Below, piece by piece: positions 4,630 through 45,920 of a stretch of DNA of 64,000 bases. The position numbers and the translations under genes were made by a program. The number at the start of each line of letters is the position of its first letter. The first letter of the stretch is position 1. The notes below the pieces were generated by a model. That model was not told where the DNA came from. It was given only the letters and a program-made list of their open reading frames with translations, and did no database searches. Source of the DNA: Rhizomonospora bruguierae (GTDB taxonomy: Bacteria; Actinomycetota; Actinomycetes; Mycobacteriales; Micromonosporaceae); contig NZ_BBQH01000030.1 in the NCBI RefSeq assembly GCF_018397995.1, positions 1 through 64,000 on the forward strand. Direction: 5' to 3'.

Positions 4630-6243
4630 CTAGATCTTTCCGGTACCCGCACCCGCGGTGACCAGCGACTTGATGTTCGCTGCGGGGTCCACGGAGTAGC
4701 CGTACGGGATGCTCGCGACGCTGCCGTTGGTCAGCACCGGACCGGAGTTGACCAGCACGTTGTTGCGGGCGACCAGGTTGCCGCCCGGCGAGGAGCCCTC
4801 GCTGGTGTGCGTCGGGTCGGTCAGGTTCTCGAAGTAGTTGCTCTCGACGAGGACGCCCGCGCCGCACGTGGTGGCGACGCCGTAGCTGTAGCTGAGCGCG
4901 GTGGTGTTGACGTAGTAGTTGTTGAACACGTGCACCGGGTTGCCGAAGCGGACCCGGGGGTTGCGCTGGGCGCAGTTGCTGAACATGTTGTGGTGGTACG
5001 TCACGCGCAGGTGGCCGGTGTCCTCGGACGCGTTGCTGTCGCTGTGCCCGACCAGCGAGCACTTGACGTGGTCGTGCAGCTTGTTCCAGGACACGGTGAT
5101 GTAGTCCGCGCCGTGCGTGATGTCCAGCAGCCCGTCGTAGTAGTCGGTGCCGTGGGTGGTGTCGCTGGACAGGTCGTTGTGGTCGAGCCACAGCCGGGTG
5201 GCGCTGTCGATGTGGATGGCGTCGCCGTTGCCGTTGCCGGCCCGCACGTTCGAGATCTTCAGGTTGCGGACGATCACGTTGCTCACGCCCCGGATGTTCA
5301 GGCCGCAGCCGTTGAGGCCGGAGCCGGAGCCGACCCCGAGGATGGTCTTGTTCGCGCCGACCCGCACGTCCGCGGAGCAGGTGAAGTTGCCGTTGACCTG
5401 CACGATCGCCGCCGAGTTTCCGGTGACGGCGCTGGTCAGGGCGGCGAGGCTGGTCACGGTGGTGGTGGAGCCGCCGGCACCGCCGGTGGTGCCGCCGCCC
5501 TGGGTCGCCCAGCCGATCAGGCCGCCGGCCGGGGGTGGTGGCGGCGTGGTCGAGGTGGGCGGCGTGCTGGTCGGCTGGGTCGTGGTGGGCGGGGTCGTGG
5601 TGGGCGGCGAGGTGGTGCCCCCGGTGGTCACGGCCACGTCGTCGAAGGACGCGCTGGCGTACGAGGTGACCAGGGCGATCCGGCCGGCGGTCTGCTGGGT
5701 GTTGGTGCCGGCGGCGACCTGCGCGCCGTTGACCAGGCCGCGGATGGTGCTGCCGGACATCTCGATCCGCAGGGTGTACCAGGTGCCGGTGTTGACCGAC
5801 AGGGCCGCGCCGCCGATGACGGTGATGGAACTGCCGTTGACCGCCTGGAGTTCGGCCCGGCCGGAGTTGAGCAGGGCCAGCCGGTACATCTTGGTGTCGC
5901 TGCTGGAGCGGGCGGCGATGGCGACGAGGCGGCCGGAGCCGTTGAACGACAGCGGCTTGACCCGGGCCTGTAGCTGGTAGTCGGTCCAGCCGGTGTCGCC
6001 GGCGAAGGCGCGGGCGAGTTCGCTGCCATTGTTGGACTGCTGGTACACCGGGGTGCCGTCGGTGACGACCGTCCAGGTGCCGCCGGACTTGGACCAGCCG
6101 TTGGCGTTGCCGTCGTTGAAGTCGTCGGTGAAGGCGGTCGCGGCGTTGGCCACGGCGCCCATGGCGAGCGCCAGCGCCAGCGCGGTCGCGCCGGCACCAG
6201 CGGCGGCCAGCAGGCCGCGGCGGTTCGGGTTTCTGATCTGCAC
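4630..6243 (-). CDS. Secreted pectate lyase, polysaccharide lyase family 1, with an N-terminal jelly-roll-like domain
   Basis: 537 residues from a GTG at 6243, preceded by GGGAGGA. The signal peptide (about 1-34) starts with RNPNRRG, a Tat-like twin-arginine stretch, then a long Ala/Leu core. Residues about 36-210 form a beta-rich concanavalin/LamG-like domain beginning TAFTDDFNDG. A Pro/Thr linker (about 212-240) leads to the right-handed beta-helix lyase domain. That domain shows the family-1 signatures WLDHNDLSSD, a DITHGAD...VSWN strand, and the QRNPRVRFG box with the catalytic arginine. It should cleave polygalacturonate outside the cell by beta-elimination, feeding the uronate importer and catabolic operon encoded next to it. 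TTTGCAG boxes near 6740-6757 suggest shared control with that operon. Confidence 0.92.
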   Translation of the reverse strand: MQIRNPNRRGLLAAAGAGATALALALAMGAVANAATAFTDDFNDGNANGWSKSGGTWTVVTDGTPVYQQSNNGSELARAFAGDTGWTDYQLQARVKPLSFNGSGRLVAIAARSSSDTKMYRLALLNSGRAELQAVNGSSITVIGGAALSVNTGTWYTLRIEMSGSTIRGLVNGAQVAAGTNTQQTAGRIALVTSYASASFDDVAVTTGGTTSPPTTTPPTTTQPTSTPPTSTTPPPPPAGGLIGWATQGGGTTGGAGGSTTTVTSLAALTSAVTGNSAAIVQVNGNFTCSADVRVGANKTILGVGSGSGLNGCGLNIRGVSNVIVRNLKISNVRAGNGNGDAIHIDSATRLWLDHNDLSSDTTHGTDYYDGLLDITHGADYITVSWNKLHDHVKCSLVGHSDSNASEDTGHLRVTYHHNMFSNCAQRNPRVRFGNPVHVFNNYYVNTTALSYSYGVATTCGAGVLVESNYFENLTDPTHTSEGSSPGGNLVARNNVLVNSGPVLTNGSVASIPYGYSVDPAANIKSLVTAGAGTGKI

Positions 6244-36972: not shown

Positions 36973-38148
<1,176 letters not shown>

Positions 38149-42597: not shown

Positions 42598-43803
42598 TCA
42601 GCGCGGTGCCAGGATGGATCCGGTCACCGGGGCGAGGGTGATCCGGGTGCCGTCCGGGCCGGGTGCCGTCGCGCCGATCGTGACCGTGTCGCCGTCCGCC
42701 AGGAACATGCGGGATTCGCCGCCGGCCAGGGTCACCGGTTCGGCGCCACTCCGGGTCAGTTCCAGGAAGCTGCCGGTCTGCGCCCGCTCCGGTCCGGAGA
42801 CGGTGCCGGACGCGTACAGGTCGCCGGTCCGCAGGGCGGCGCCGTTGACGGTGAGGTGCGCGAGTTGCTGCGCCGGGGTCCAGTACATGCCGGCGAACGG
42901 GGGCCGGGAGACGAGGGTGCCGTTCCACTCCACGGTCAGCGCCAGGTCCAGCCCCCGGCGGTCCTCCTCCCGCAGGTACTCCTGGACGGGTGGCTCCTGC
43001 CGGGGCGCGGGTACCCAGGCGGCCCCCAGGGCCTCCAGCGGGGTGATCCAGGCGGCCACGGACGTGGCGAACGACTTGGCCAGGAACGGGCCGAGCGGCT
43101 GGTACTCCCACGCCTGGATGTCCCGGGCGGACCAGTCGTTGACCAGCACCACGCCGAACACGTGGTTCGCGAAGGCGCCGGTGGGCACCCGCTCCCCCAG
43201 GGCGCTCGGCACGCCCACCACGAAGCCCACCTCGGCCTCGATGTCCAGCCGGGCGGAGGGACCGAAGACCGGCTCCCCGGCGCCCGTGGACCTGCGCTGC
43301 CCGCACGGCCGCACCACGGGGGTACCGGAGACGATCAGGGTGCCGGCCCGGCCGTGGTACCCGATGGGCAGGTGCTTCCAGTTGGGCAGCAGCGGCTCCT
43401 GGCCCGGGCGGAGGATGCGGCCGACGTTCGTGGCGTGGTACTCGGAGGAGTAGAAGTCGACGTAGTCGCCCGGCGACCAGGCCAGCACCGGCTCCACATC
43501 GGACACCGGGGACAGCAGCGGCTCCACCGCCGGCCGGTGCCGCTCGTCGGTGAGCAGGTCGACCAGTCGCGCCCGCACGGCGGTCCACTGTGGGCGCCCC
43601 AGGGCCAGGAACGCGTTCAGCGTGGGCGCGCACAGCGACCCGCCCGCCAGGACCAGTTCGGCGCGCTCGGCGGCGGCCAGGTCCAGCACGAAGTCGCCGA
43701 TCCGCGCGCCGAGGCGGGGCGCCGCGTCGCCGCGGGTGAACGCGCCGTACGGCAGGTGCCGCGCGCCGAAGCCGCCGCCGGCAGCACCCGGTACCCAGGT
43801 CAT
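42598..43803 (-). CDS. fahA: Fumarylacetoacetase
   Basis: 401 residues. The N-terminal SH3-like domain (FGARHLPYGAF) is followed by the FAH beta-fold, with metal-binding DYVDFYSSEYHATN, the catalytic loop PIGYHGRAGTLIVSGTPVVRP, EAEVGFVVG (metal-binding Glu) and VNDWSARDIQAWEYQPLGPFLAKSF. It hydrolyses fumarylacetoacetate to fumarate and acetoacetate, the last step of tyrosine breakdown. Its start codon overlaps the stop of the preceding gene (ATGA), so the two proteins are made together. Confidence 0.96.
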   Translation of the reverse strand: MTWVPGAAGGGFGARHLPYGAFTRGDAAPRLGARIGDFVLDLAAAERAELVLAGGSLCAPTLNAFLALGRPQWTAVRARLVDLLTDERHRPAVEPLLSPVSDVEPVLAWSPGDYVDFYSSEYHATNVGRILRPGQEPLLPNWKHLPIGYHGRAGTLIVSGTPVVRPCGQRRSTGAGEPVFGPSARLDIEAEVGFVVGVPSALGERVPTGAFANHVFGVVLVNDWSARDIQAWEYQPLGPFLAKSFATSVAAWITPLEALGAAWVPAPRQEPPVQEYLREEDRRGLDLALTVEWNGTLVSRPPFAGMYWTPAQQLAHLTVNGAALRTGDLYASGTVSGPERAQTGSFLELTRSGAEPVTLAGGESRMFLADGDTVTIGATAPGPDGTRITLAPVTGSILAPR

Positions 43804-44645
43804 GCGGCCATCATCCCCAACTCGACGAGATCCTGGACCGGTTCGGCCACGCTGCACGAGCCGAAGGACACCAGCAGCGGACGGTGCAGGCCGGTGGCGA
43901 CCCCGCCGGCCACGGCGCCGGCGGATCCGGCGGCGAGCAGTTCGGCCACCTCGATCACCTCGGCGCCGGCGGCGGCCCGCAGCGCGGCGGCGAGCACGTT
44001 GAGGAAGCCGTGGTGCACGAAGCCGGTCTCCGGGTCCGTTCGGCGGATCGCGCGGTGCAGCCCGGCGGTCAACTTGAACGGCAGCGACCGGTCCCGGCAG
44101 GCGCAGATCACCGCGGCCAGCTCCATCGGCGTGGGGAACAGCTCGGCGGCCAGCCCGCCGGTGCGGAACTTGGGCGCGATCCAGGCGCCGGCGGCCCGCG
44201 CCTCGGCCACCGTGTCCAGCGCGGCGATCAGACCCCGGGCGAGCGGAATCTCCGCGTACCCGATCAGGTCGGGCCAGCCGGAGAGCTGGTCGGCGAGCGT
44301 GCGCAGGCCGGGTTGCGGGTCCTCGCCGCGCTTGGCGACCGCGACCTCCACCTGGCGCGGGACCAGCCGGGGCTCGGCCCGCACGGCGGCGACGGCGGCG
44401 GGCAGCCCGGCCAGGCCGGTGTCCCCGACCAGGCCCACCTCGAGCCGCTCCTGCGGCCCCAGCAGCGCCGGCAGGTCGCCCAGCCCGGACGCGGGAACCA
44501 GCAGCGGACCGACCATCGGCGCGTACCAGGCGGCCCGGTGCTCGCGGTGCGCGGCGACCGCCCGGGGTAGCGGCGTGCCGGCGGGCGGGAACACGGCGGC
44601 GTCGTCGACGAGGCCGGTCAGCAGCTCCGGCACGGAAGTTGACAC
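43800..44645 (-). CDS. Conserved protein of unknown function, translationally coupled to fahA
   Basis: 281 residues. No family that I can name. Alternating hydrophobic strands and Ala-rich helices suggest a TIM-barrel-like fold. Conserved-looking polar clusters lie at strand ends: VAVAKRG (about 102-107), IAPKFRTGG (156-164), FKLTAGLHRAIRR (190-202) and FVHHGFLN (209-216). The lysines in PKF and FKL and the His pair look like an active site. The gene is divergent from hmgA and shares a four-base overlap with fahA. It thus sits exactly between the two enzymes that flank the unassigned maleylacetoacetate isomerisation step. That role is a hypothesis from context only. Confidence 0.7.
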   Translation of the reverse strand: MSTSVPELLTGLVDDAAVFPPAGTPLPRAVAAHREHRAAWYAPMVGPLLVPASGLGDLPALLGPQERLEVGLVGDTGLAGLPAAVAAVRAEPRLVPRQVEVAVAKRGEDPQPGLRTLADQLSGWPDLIGYAEIPLARGLIAALDTVAEARAAGAWIAPKFRTGGLAAELFPTPMELAAVICACRDRSLPFKLTAGLHRAIRRTDPETGFVHHGFLNVLAAALRAAAGAEVIEVAELLAAGSAGAVAGGVATGLHRPLLVSFGSCSVAEPVQDLVELGMMAA

Positions 44646-44660
44646 GGCTACCGAACCTAA

Positions 44661-44699
44661 CGGACGCTACGTGTAGCGGACAACAGCGTCCGATTATCG
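44661..44699. promoter_or_regulatory. Nested palindromes in the hmgA/fahA divergent control region
   Basis: Three symmetric elements overlap here. CGCTAC-GT-GTAGCG is at 44665-44678. CGGACGCT (44661-44668) matches AGCGTCCG (44685-44692) in inverted orientation. CGATTATCG is at 44691-44699. They lie 16-55 bases from the start at 44645 and 42-80 from hmgA, where a repressor could control both directions. Confidence 0.55.
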
Positions 44700-44741
44700 A
44701 ACGCTTGAGGCCGGACACCGCTACGCGCCGGGAGGGTCGAC

Positions 44742-45920
44742 ATGCCGTACTACCGCCGCGTCGGCGAGGTGCCACCGAAGCGCCACACCCAGTTCCGCCA
44801 GCCCGACGGCAGCCTGTACGCCGAGGAGTTGATGGGCCAGGAGGGCTTCTCCTCCGACTCCTCCCTGCTCTACCACCGGCACCTGCCGACCGCGATCGTG
44901 GCCGCGGAGGAGTACGACCCGCCCGCGTACGCCCGGGTGGCCAACCGGCCGCTCAAGCCCCGGCACTTCGCCACCCACAAACTGGACGCGGGCGGCACCG
45001 ACCCGATCCTCGGCCGGCAGCCGCTGCTGGCCAACGACGACGTGCACATCTCGTACGTGGCCGCGGACCGCCCCTCCCCGCTGTACCGCAACGCGATCGG
45101 CGACGAGTGCGTGTACGTCGAGTCCGGCTCGGTCCGGCTCGAGTCCACGTTCGGCGCGCTGGAGCTGTCCGCCGGCGACTACGCGATCATCCCGACCTCG
45201 GTCATCCACCGGTACGTCCCGAGCGGCTCCCCGGCCGAGCCGGTGCGCATGCTCAGCGTGGCGGCGACCGGCCACATCGGACCCCCGAAGCGGTACCTGT
45301 CGGCGCGCGGCCAGTTCCTGGAGCACTCCCCGTACTGCGAGCGGGACCTGCGCGGGCCGGCCGCGCCGCTGCTCGCGGACGGCACGGACGTCCCCGTGTA
45401 CGTGTGGCACCGGCGCGGGTGGAGCCTGCACACGTACGCCCACCACCCGTTCGACGTGGTCGGCTGGGACGGCCACCTCTACCCGTGGGCGTTCTCCATC
45501 CACGACTTCGAGCCGATCACCGGGCGGGTGCACCAGCCGCCGCCGGTCCACCAGACGTTCCAGGGCCCCAACTTCGTGATCTGCTCGTTCGTCCCGCGCA
45601 AGGTCGACTACCACCCGCTGGCGATCCCGGTGCCGTACAACCACCACAACGTGGACTCGGACGAGGTGCTGTTCTACACCGGCGGCAACTACGAGGCCCG
45701 GCGCGGCTCCGGCATCGGCCAGGGCTCGATCTCGCTGCACCCGTCCGGATTCACCCACGGGCCGCAGCCGGGCGCGCCGGAGCGGGCGATCGGCGCCGAG
45801 TTCTTCGACGAACTGGCCGTCATGGTCGACACCTTCCGCCCGCTGGACCTGTGCGAGCCGGCCCTGGCCTGCGAGGACGCCGCATACGCCTGGACCTGGG
45901 CGCACCGACCCGCACAGTAG
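44742..45920 (+). CDS. hmgA: Homogentisate 1,2-dioxygenase
   Basis: 392 residues with GGGAGGG before the ATG. The cupin core holds the iron ligands in PYNHHNVDSDEVLFYTGGNYEA (His and Glu) and SLHPSGFTHGPQPG (His). Earlier markers are ECVYVESGSVRLESTFGALELSAGDYAIIPTSVIHRY. It is shorter than the 430-440 residues of proteobacterial HmgA, as usual for actinobacterial forms. It opens the ring of homogentisate with oxygen to give 4-maleylacetoacetate. It is divergent from the unknown gene plus fahA. Confidence 0.96.
   Translation: MPYYRRVGEVPPKRHTQFRQPDGSLYAEELMGQEGFSSDSSLLYHRHLPTAIVAAEEYDPPAYARVANRPLKPRHFATHKLDAGGTDPILGRQPLLANDDVHISYVAADRPSPLYRNAIGDECVYVESGSVRLESTFGALELSAGDYAIIPTSVIHRYVPSGSPAEPVRMLSVAATGHIGPPKRYLSARGQFLEHSPYCERDLRGPAAPLLADGTDVPVYVWHRRGWSLHTYAHHPFDVVGWDGHLYPWAFSIHDFEPITGRVHQPPPVHQTFQGPNFVICSFVPRKVDYHPLAIPVPYNHHNVDSDEVLFYTGGNYEARRGSGIGQGSISLHPSGFTHGPQPGAPERAIGAEFFDELAVMVDTFRPLDLCEPALACEDAAYAWTWAHRPAQ

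Follow-up and report, generated by a model that had tools for sequence, protein, structure and literature searches.

The hmgA-X-fahA locus

The stretch of DNA analysed here (64,000 nucleotides of Rhizomonospora bruguierae, referred to below as the window) carries an unnamed gene, here called X, between genes for two enzymes of the homogentisate pathway, HmgA and FahA. The following features are considered.

36979-38148, plus strand: 4-hydroxyphenylpyruvate dioxygenase (HPPD), the upstream pathway step; TIGR01263, 419 bits
39758-40837, plus strand: HisC-like aminotransferase; NF002878, 492 bits
42079-42543, downstream of fahA: SRPBCC/polyketide-cyclase-like gene
42598-43803, minus strand: fahA, fumarylacetoacetase; TIGR01266, 405.5 bits (cut-off 375.3)
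43800-43803, minus strand: ATGA formed by the X stop and the fahA start (fahA ATG 43803-43801, X TGA 43802-43800)
43800-44645, minus strand: gene X, GTG start, 281 aa; candidate thiol-independent maleylacetoacetate isomerase, predicted (beta/alpha)8 barrel
43998-44015, minus strand: HHGFLN motif of X (residues 211-216), in the long insert between strands 7 and 8
44073-44075, minus strand: codon of K191, strand 7; kept in 61 of 62 sequences, proposed partner lysine
44169-44171, minus strand: codon of K159, barrel strand 6; kept in 61 of 62 sequences, proposed catalytic lysine
44688-44702, no strand: palindrome GTCCGATTATCGAAC / GTCCGATWATCGGAC in the shared divergent promoter of hmgA and X; candidate operator
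44742-45920, plus strand: hmgA-like gene for a homogentisate 1,2-dioxygenase of a divergent cupin type; TIGR01015, 46.4 bits (cut-off 510.75)

X and hmgA lie on opposite strands, 96 bp apart, and are divergently transcribed. The first-pass annotation of this DNA had placed X between hmgA and fahA, coupled to the latter by an ATGA overlap, and both the coordinates and the overlap are borne out. By the curated model TIGR01266, fahA is judged to be a true fumarylacetoacetase. The window-type HmgA has close relatives in 74 of 148 genomes of the class despite its score of 46 versus 510.75 bits against TIGR01015. In the Phytohabitans loci L028, L030, and L032, an SRPBCC-like gene directly follows X, and fahA is found elsewhere in those genomes.

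The HisC-like gene may encode a tyrosine/phenylalanine aminotransferase. With HPPD and this aminotransferase encoded in the window, the tyrosine route is present except for an isomerase. The palindrome between hmgA and X shows few changes in an alignment of 18 related loci and occurs once in the window when up to two mismatches are allowed; it is listed as a candidate operator.

Distribution of X and its linkage to the homogentisate pathway

X is a real, conserved, unnamed gene. The protein from the window has no Pfam match at E≤1 (FAA_hydrolase, PF01557, included), and it matches neither TIGR01262 and the GST domains nor PF11716. Its sole NCBIfam match (0.028) is at chance level, and a sequence search of the PDB returned no match. 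Pfam gave nothing above chance for 41 X relatives (E≤0.5) and four distant relatives, and PF11716 is not one of the 21 families that the search of the 41 listed. When these 41 sequences and their profile were compared with PDB sequences, matches were at chance level or none, and NCBIfam gave no more than that. X is thus filed under no family. Annotated plasmid records call it a "hypothetical protein", and no paper naming it came up in searches of open-licence PMC articles.

The order was represented by 61 genomes, and 24 of them have a match (E≤1e-3, own genome counted; the one in G009 is weak and partial); together with 57 loci found in a contig search, these matches show that X is no chance open reading frame (ORF). 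It also occurs in 49 of 148 genomes of the class and, in a sample of 198 genomes from the whole phylum, in 10, of which five lie outside the class. The three samples overlap, and as only 16 or 12 first-look candidates were scored per genome in the class and phylum searches, weak copies may be missed in these two counts. Some genomes (G027, G046, G055) carry two copies. Plasmid records add X in six Priestia (Bacillota) and one Kovacikia (Cyanobacteriota).

X is commonly found next to hmgA, fahA, or both. The numbers of loci with these genes within 1.5 kb of X are as follows.

Contig-search loci (n = 57): hmgA 46, fahA 30, both 25, neither 6 (hmgA or fahA, 51)
Order loci (n = 26): hmgA 22, fahA 22, both 21, neither 3 (hmgA or fahA, 23)
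Phylum loci (n = 9): hmgA 5, fahA 9, both 5, neither 0 (hmgA or fahA, 9)
Plasmid loci (n = 12): hmgA 6, fahA 12, both 6, neither 0 (hmgA or fahA, 12)

For hmgA, only matches of at least 150 bits to the divergent type are counted, and order locus L024, in which this count gave no X, was left out; since the locus sets share genomes and close relatives, these counts are not independent events. In all 73 loci that have fahA within 1.5 kb of X, fahA is downstream and on the same strand. When loci with a gap longer than 400 bp are set aside, 72 remain; of these, 47 allow a 4-bp overlap and four a 1-bp overlap, and 21 allow neither. Eight X homologues (L041, L044, L059, L066, L067, L023, L026, L027) have neither a divergent-type hmgA nor fahA within 1.5 kb.

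Two other views of this linkage were rejected. One was that X is retained in genomes devoid of fahA. Eighteen genomes, drawn from the 27 contig-search X loci that lack a nearby fahA, were searched, and fahA was found elsewhere in 17 of them (over the cut-off in 14); the exception is a 3.5-Mb record. The other was that X is a partner of the divergent HmgA only. At locus L132, X lies beside an HmgA of the classical type (TIGR01015, 631 bits), so X tracks the pathway and not one type of dioxygenase.

Plasmids display the same arrangement in several genera. The order is hmgA-X-fahA in Pseudonocardia and on the Rhodococcus plasmids pN1 and pNit, where hmgA is annotated merely as "cupin domain-containing protein". 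It is extended to hppD-hmgA-X-fahA in Tsukamurella and is followed by genes for CoA transferase subunits A and B in Streptomyces sp. Alt3. The Priestia operon, which comes with an AsnC regulator, reads hppD-X-fahA-hisC-hmgA-amino acid permease; a HisC-like gene is thus common to this operon and the window. On the Kovacikia plasmid, a record without annotation, hmgA and hppD are divergent from X-fahA. In each of the 24 plasmid records that match X, fahA lies no more than 150 bp away. Among 119 plasmid records with fahA, the other 95 gave no X match; one of these is from Nocardia farcinica, with fahA directly after hmgA, and the rest of those listed are from Pseudomonadota genera. A search with MaiA gave matches in 231 plasmid records, and the 60 listed are from Pseudomonadota genera as well; in the Dinoroseobacter cluster, MaiA is not adjacent to fahA. 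Two Streptomyces plasmids carry an X-fahA pair (L144, 6947-9067; L152, 6998-9126) with no window-type hmgA detected within about 7 kb. In L144, this stretch also encodes an AMP-binding protein and an acyl carrier protein, and the pair of L144 and L152 is possibly reused for another substrate.

Co-occurrence in the class leads to a similar picture. The 49 genomes with X encode HmgA (E≤1e-20) in 47 cases, FahA in 46, and close matches to both in 46. Conversely, close hmgA and fahA are both present in 71 of the 148 genomes, 46 of them with X and 25 with none recognised (Fisher p about 2e-16, phylogeny ignored). These counts tie X to the homogentisate pathway and also indicate that it is not universal in it: either the step can be achieved by other means, or X has a different function in the pathway. 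In several of the X-less genomes that were viewed, hmgA is immediately followed by fahA. No consistent replacement isomerase was seen beside hmgA in the X-less loci viewed, for which a crude ORF caller was used that placed some ORFs in the wrong frame. A further 13 genomes of the class (G075, G093, and eleven others) have fahA but neither a window-type HmgA at E≤1e-20 nor X; these may use classical HmgA.

MaiA (TIGR01262) does not exceed the cut-off in any of the 148 class genomes, among which one weak match was seen; a control search of 14 genomes gave one match over the cut-off. According to the first-pass annotation, no glutathione- or mycothiol-type isomerase is encoded in the cluster. This agrees with our searches, as the genome itself has no TIGR01262 match and the contig that holds the window has no match to PF11716 (MDMPI_N). 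Elsewhere in this genome, PF11716 has nine matches.

Predicted fold and conserved residues

The first-pass annotation had suggested a barrel fold and had proposed structure prediction as a check. AlphaFold2, run on X from the window with 40 relatives, confirmed the suggestion by returning a (beta/alpha)8 barrel (pLDDT 94.4, pTM 0.91) with strands at residues 13-15, 45-51, 68-73, 94-102, 128-132, 156-160, 190-192, and 258-263. A second model was computed for the Tsukamurella protein (37% identical) from relatives that partly coincide with those used before. It is consistent with the first model (pLDDT 93.4) and has K159 and K191 in the same places.

When the first model was compared with known structures by VIA-align, the top 44 rows were deoxyribose-phosphate aldolases, entries so titled, and derived designs (Z 14.8-13.0), and the first other fold was PdxJ (Z 12.8). 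E. coli DeoC (6z9j) was aligned over 215 residues with a Z of 14.7 and an rmsd of 3.5. For the second model, the lead was smaller (aldolase Z 13.9 versus designed barrel 13.0). Foldseek gave no clear match for the first model (E only 1.1e-3) and ranked a designed barrel first for the second. The KE70 designs are built on DeoC.

The conserved residues D14, E100, E132, K159, and K191 of X are located on strands 1, 4, 5, 6, and 7 of the model. By strand order, they would correspond to D16, D102, E141, K167, and K201 of E. coli DeoC, and the FGSCS segment of X to FGASS after strand 8 of DeoC. In DeoC, K167 and K201 are the catalytic pair, with K167 as the Schiff-base lysine, and D102 also has a catalytic role. 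X differs from DeoC by the long insert between strands 7 and 8 that carries HHGFLN and by its genomic context, which is tyrosine catabolism. Homology to DeoC was considered and rejected: hhalign comparisons of 83, then 102, X sequences with 12 deoC sequences were not significant (Prob 0.4 and 0.6), and the Pfam DeoC family has no match in X, its 41 relatives, or the four distant relatives. We therefore describe X as like DeoC in its predicted fold, and possibly in how it works, and do not assign it to that family.

Conservation was assessed in 62 X sequences below 80% identity, a set that excludes the fragment L081, locus L024, the Priestia copies found later, and the X-like ORFs at loci L096-L099. 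D14, E100, G213, R255, and P269 are invariant, and E132, K159, R161, G163, G164, K191, T193, H212, and N216 are kept in 61 sequences. The motifs PKFRTGG, FKLTAGLH, and HHGFLN had been singled out at first pass as looking catalytic. Conservation is indeed found in these motifs, at 61 or 62 of 62 sequences for the key residues. Distant copies mostly retain D[DYH]A..[FL]PP, E, E, K.R[TC]GG, K.TAGLH, GF[LV]N, R, and [FY]GSC, and the charged strand-end residues are also kept in the Priestia and Kovacikia proteins. Exceptions to these core motifs are L057, L080, where E replaces K191, and L140, which lacks K159 despite having hmgA next to fahA. The cysteine of FGSCS is kept in 57 of 62 sequences and is replaced in Amycolatopsis-type copies, which would make a mechanism based on a cysteine thiol less likely than one based on lysine.

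Three genomes of one genus (G134, G181, G199) carry X-like ORFs devoid of both lysines and of HHGFLN. Such ORFs were located at L098 (4725-5378), L099 (about 5074-5990), and L097 (about 4650-5540). Those of L098 and L099 lie just upstream of fahA and near hmgA; the genomes in which a degenerate ORF is retained in this position are G181 and G199. Two of the three genomes are among the 25 counted as X-less; in G134, counted as X-bearing, hmgA and fahA were not found.

A candidate for the maleylacetoacetate step

Maleylacetoacetate isomerisation has so far been known from zeta-class glutathione S-transferases (GSTs). These enzymes (MaiA/HmgC, TIGR01262) catalyse the reaction proposed here for X and occupy the same slot between HmgA and FahA, and X shares with the MaiA type a gene position inside homogentisate operons. 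They have the GST fold, whereas X is a predicted barrel without a TIGR01262 or GST match and is not expected to use glutathione. The mycothiol-dependent maleylpyruvate isomerase (MDMPI, PF11716) carries out an analogous cis-trans isomerisation in glutathione-lacking Actinomycetota, but differs from X in fold, and X has no PF11716 match.

Published clusters leave room for such an enzyme. A Bacillus with hmgA and a predicted fumarylacetoacetate hydrolase is described in the relevant section of PMC4457819 as having no identifiable isomerase gene, and the steps after maleylacetoacetate are called unclear there. A maleylacetoacetate hydrolase reported for some Bacillus, cited in the same section, would, like the proposed X, offer Gram-positive bacteria a glutathione-free route past maleylacetoacetate; it would bypass isomerisation, however, and X has no FAA_hydrolase match. 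For Rhodococcus ruber, the figure legend in PMC6498646 lists hmgA, hmgB, ech, and acs in the homogentisate cluster, with no isomerase among them, and that paper names genC as the mycothiol-dependent isomerase of the gentisate cluster. The portion of PMC11889516 on the R. globerulus proteome reports HmgA and HmgB and names no isomerase.

We consider X to be a glutathione- and mycothiol-independent maleylacetoacetate isomerase that acts between HmgA and FahA, with a probability of roughly 0.6; its substrate and mechanism are inferred. For the isomerase missing from homogentisate pathways that work without glutathione, X is the best candidate to have come out of this analysis. The first-pass annotation had raised X as a candidate for this step, and the proposal has gained support from the order of X and fahA, the clusters in three phyla, the lack of MaiA matches above the cut-off in 148 class genomes, and the conserved residues at the strand ends. 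Confidence is limited by the X-less genomes, the degenerate ORFs, the altered copies L140 and L080, the unlinked homologues, the non-significant hhalign comparison with deoC, and the nine MDMPI_N matches.

These last matches, all of them in the genome of the window and none on its contig, would suit an explanation in which an unlinked mycothiol-dependent enzyme (DinB/MDMPI), or free mycothiol, isomerises maleylacetoacetate and X deals with a side product such as maleylacetone, succinylacetone, or an adduct. The 25 of 71 genomes that have hmgA and fahA and no recognised X point the same way, as does the presence, on two Streptomyces plasmids, of an MDMPI_N gene that lies upstream of X-fahA at distances of about 1 and 3.3 kb. 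On the other hand, X precedes fahA in fixed order and strand, and it also lies beside fahA in the clusters of Priestia and Kovacikia, two genera (from Bacillota and Cyanobacteriota) that are not known as mycothiol producers. We regard this explanation as unlikely. X might instead be a non-catalytic partner of FahA or HmgA, for example a scaffold, chaperone, or channelling protein. While the 4-bp overlap possible in 47 of 72 loci and the lysine-less ORFs kept upstream of fahA in G181 and G199 would fit such a role, the near-invariance of the charged strand-end residues in the 62 sequences, extending to Priestia and Kovacikia, is what an enzyme would be expected to show, and many genomes with hmgA and fahA do without X; a non-catalytic role appears quite improbable.

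The probability is slighter still that no isomerase is needed because maleylacetoacetate is split directly into maleate and acetoacetate by FahA or a hydrolase resembling it, with X performing a downstream or accessory step. FahA scores against TIGR01266 are somewhat lower in genomes without X than in those with X (medians 389.5 vs. 420.0, p 0.004, phylogeny ignored, with the contig-truncated FahA of X-bearing G087 and G101 left out), and a maleylacetoacetate hydrolase is reported for some Bacillus in the section of PMC4457819 referred to above. In 71 of the 148 genomes of the class, that of the window included, FahA nevertheless scores above the cut-off for fumarylacetoacetase, and direct hydrolysis leaves X with no job that would explain its place beside hmgA and fahA.

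If X is the isomerase, it may be the founding member of a family of cofactor- and thiol-independent cis-trans isomerases, in which a lysine of a barrel resembling class I aldolases rotates the double bond of maleylacetoacetate. To this more specific proposal we assign somewhat less than an even chance. Amines catalyse the isomerisation of maleate. Isomerisation by a lysine is chemically plausible since the cis double bond of maleylacetoacetate is conjugated to a ketone; rotation becomes possible once an amine has either condensed with the ketone to an iminium or added across the double bond. In X, deprotonated K159, its pKa lowered by K191, would attack the cis-enedione, either forming a Schiff base with the ketone at C4 or adding in an aza-Michael reaction. 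The C2-C3 bond would thereby gain single-bond character and rotate, and fumarylacetoacetate would be released to FahA. E100, E132, and D14 may provide the acid/base groups, and R161, H212, N216, and R255 may hold the carboxylates of the substrate.

Which enzyme isomerises maleylacetoacetate in glutathione-free bacteria is an acknowledged gap, as PMC4457819 on Bacillus and the R. ruber legend in PMC6498646 illustrate. X represents a specific, widely conserved, unnamed family that fills this slot in annotated operons. If the assignment is correct, it would explain how the homogentisate pathway is completed without glutathione in Actinomycetota, Bacillota, and at least one cyanobacterium, and maleylacetoacetate isomerisation would have been solved a second time by a non-homologous enzyme using different chemistry. 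Many entries now called "hypothetical protein" would then become annotatable.
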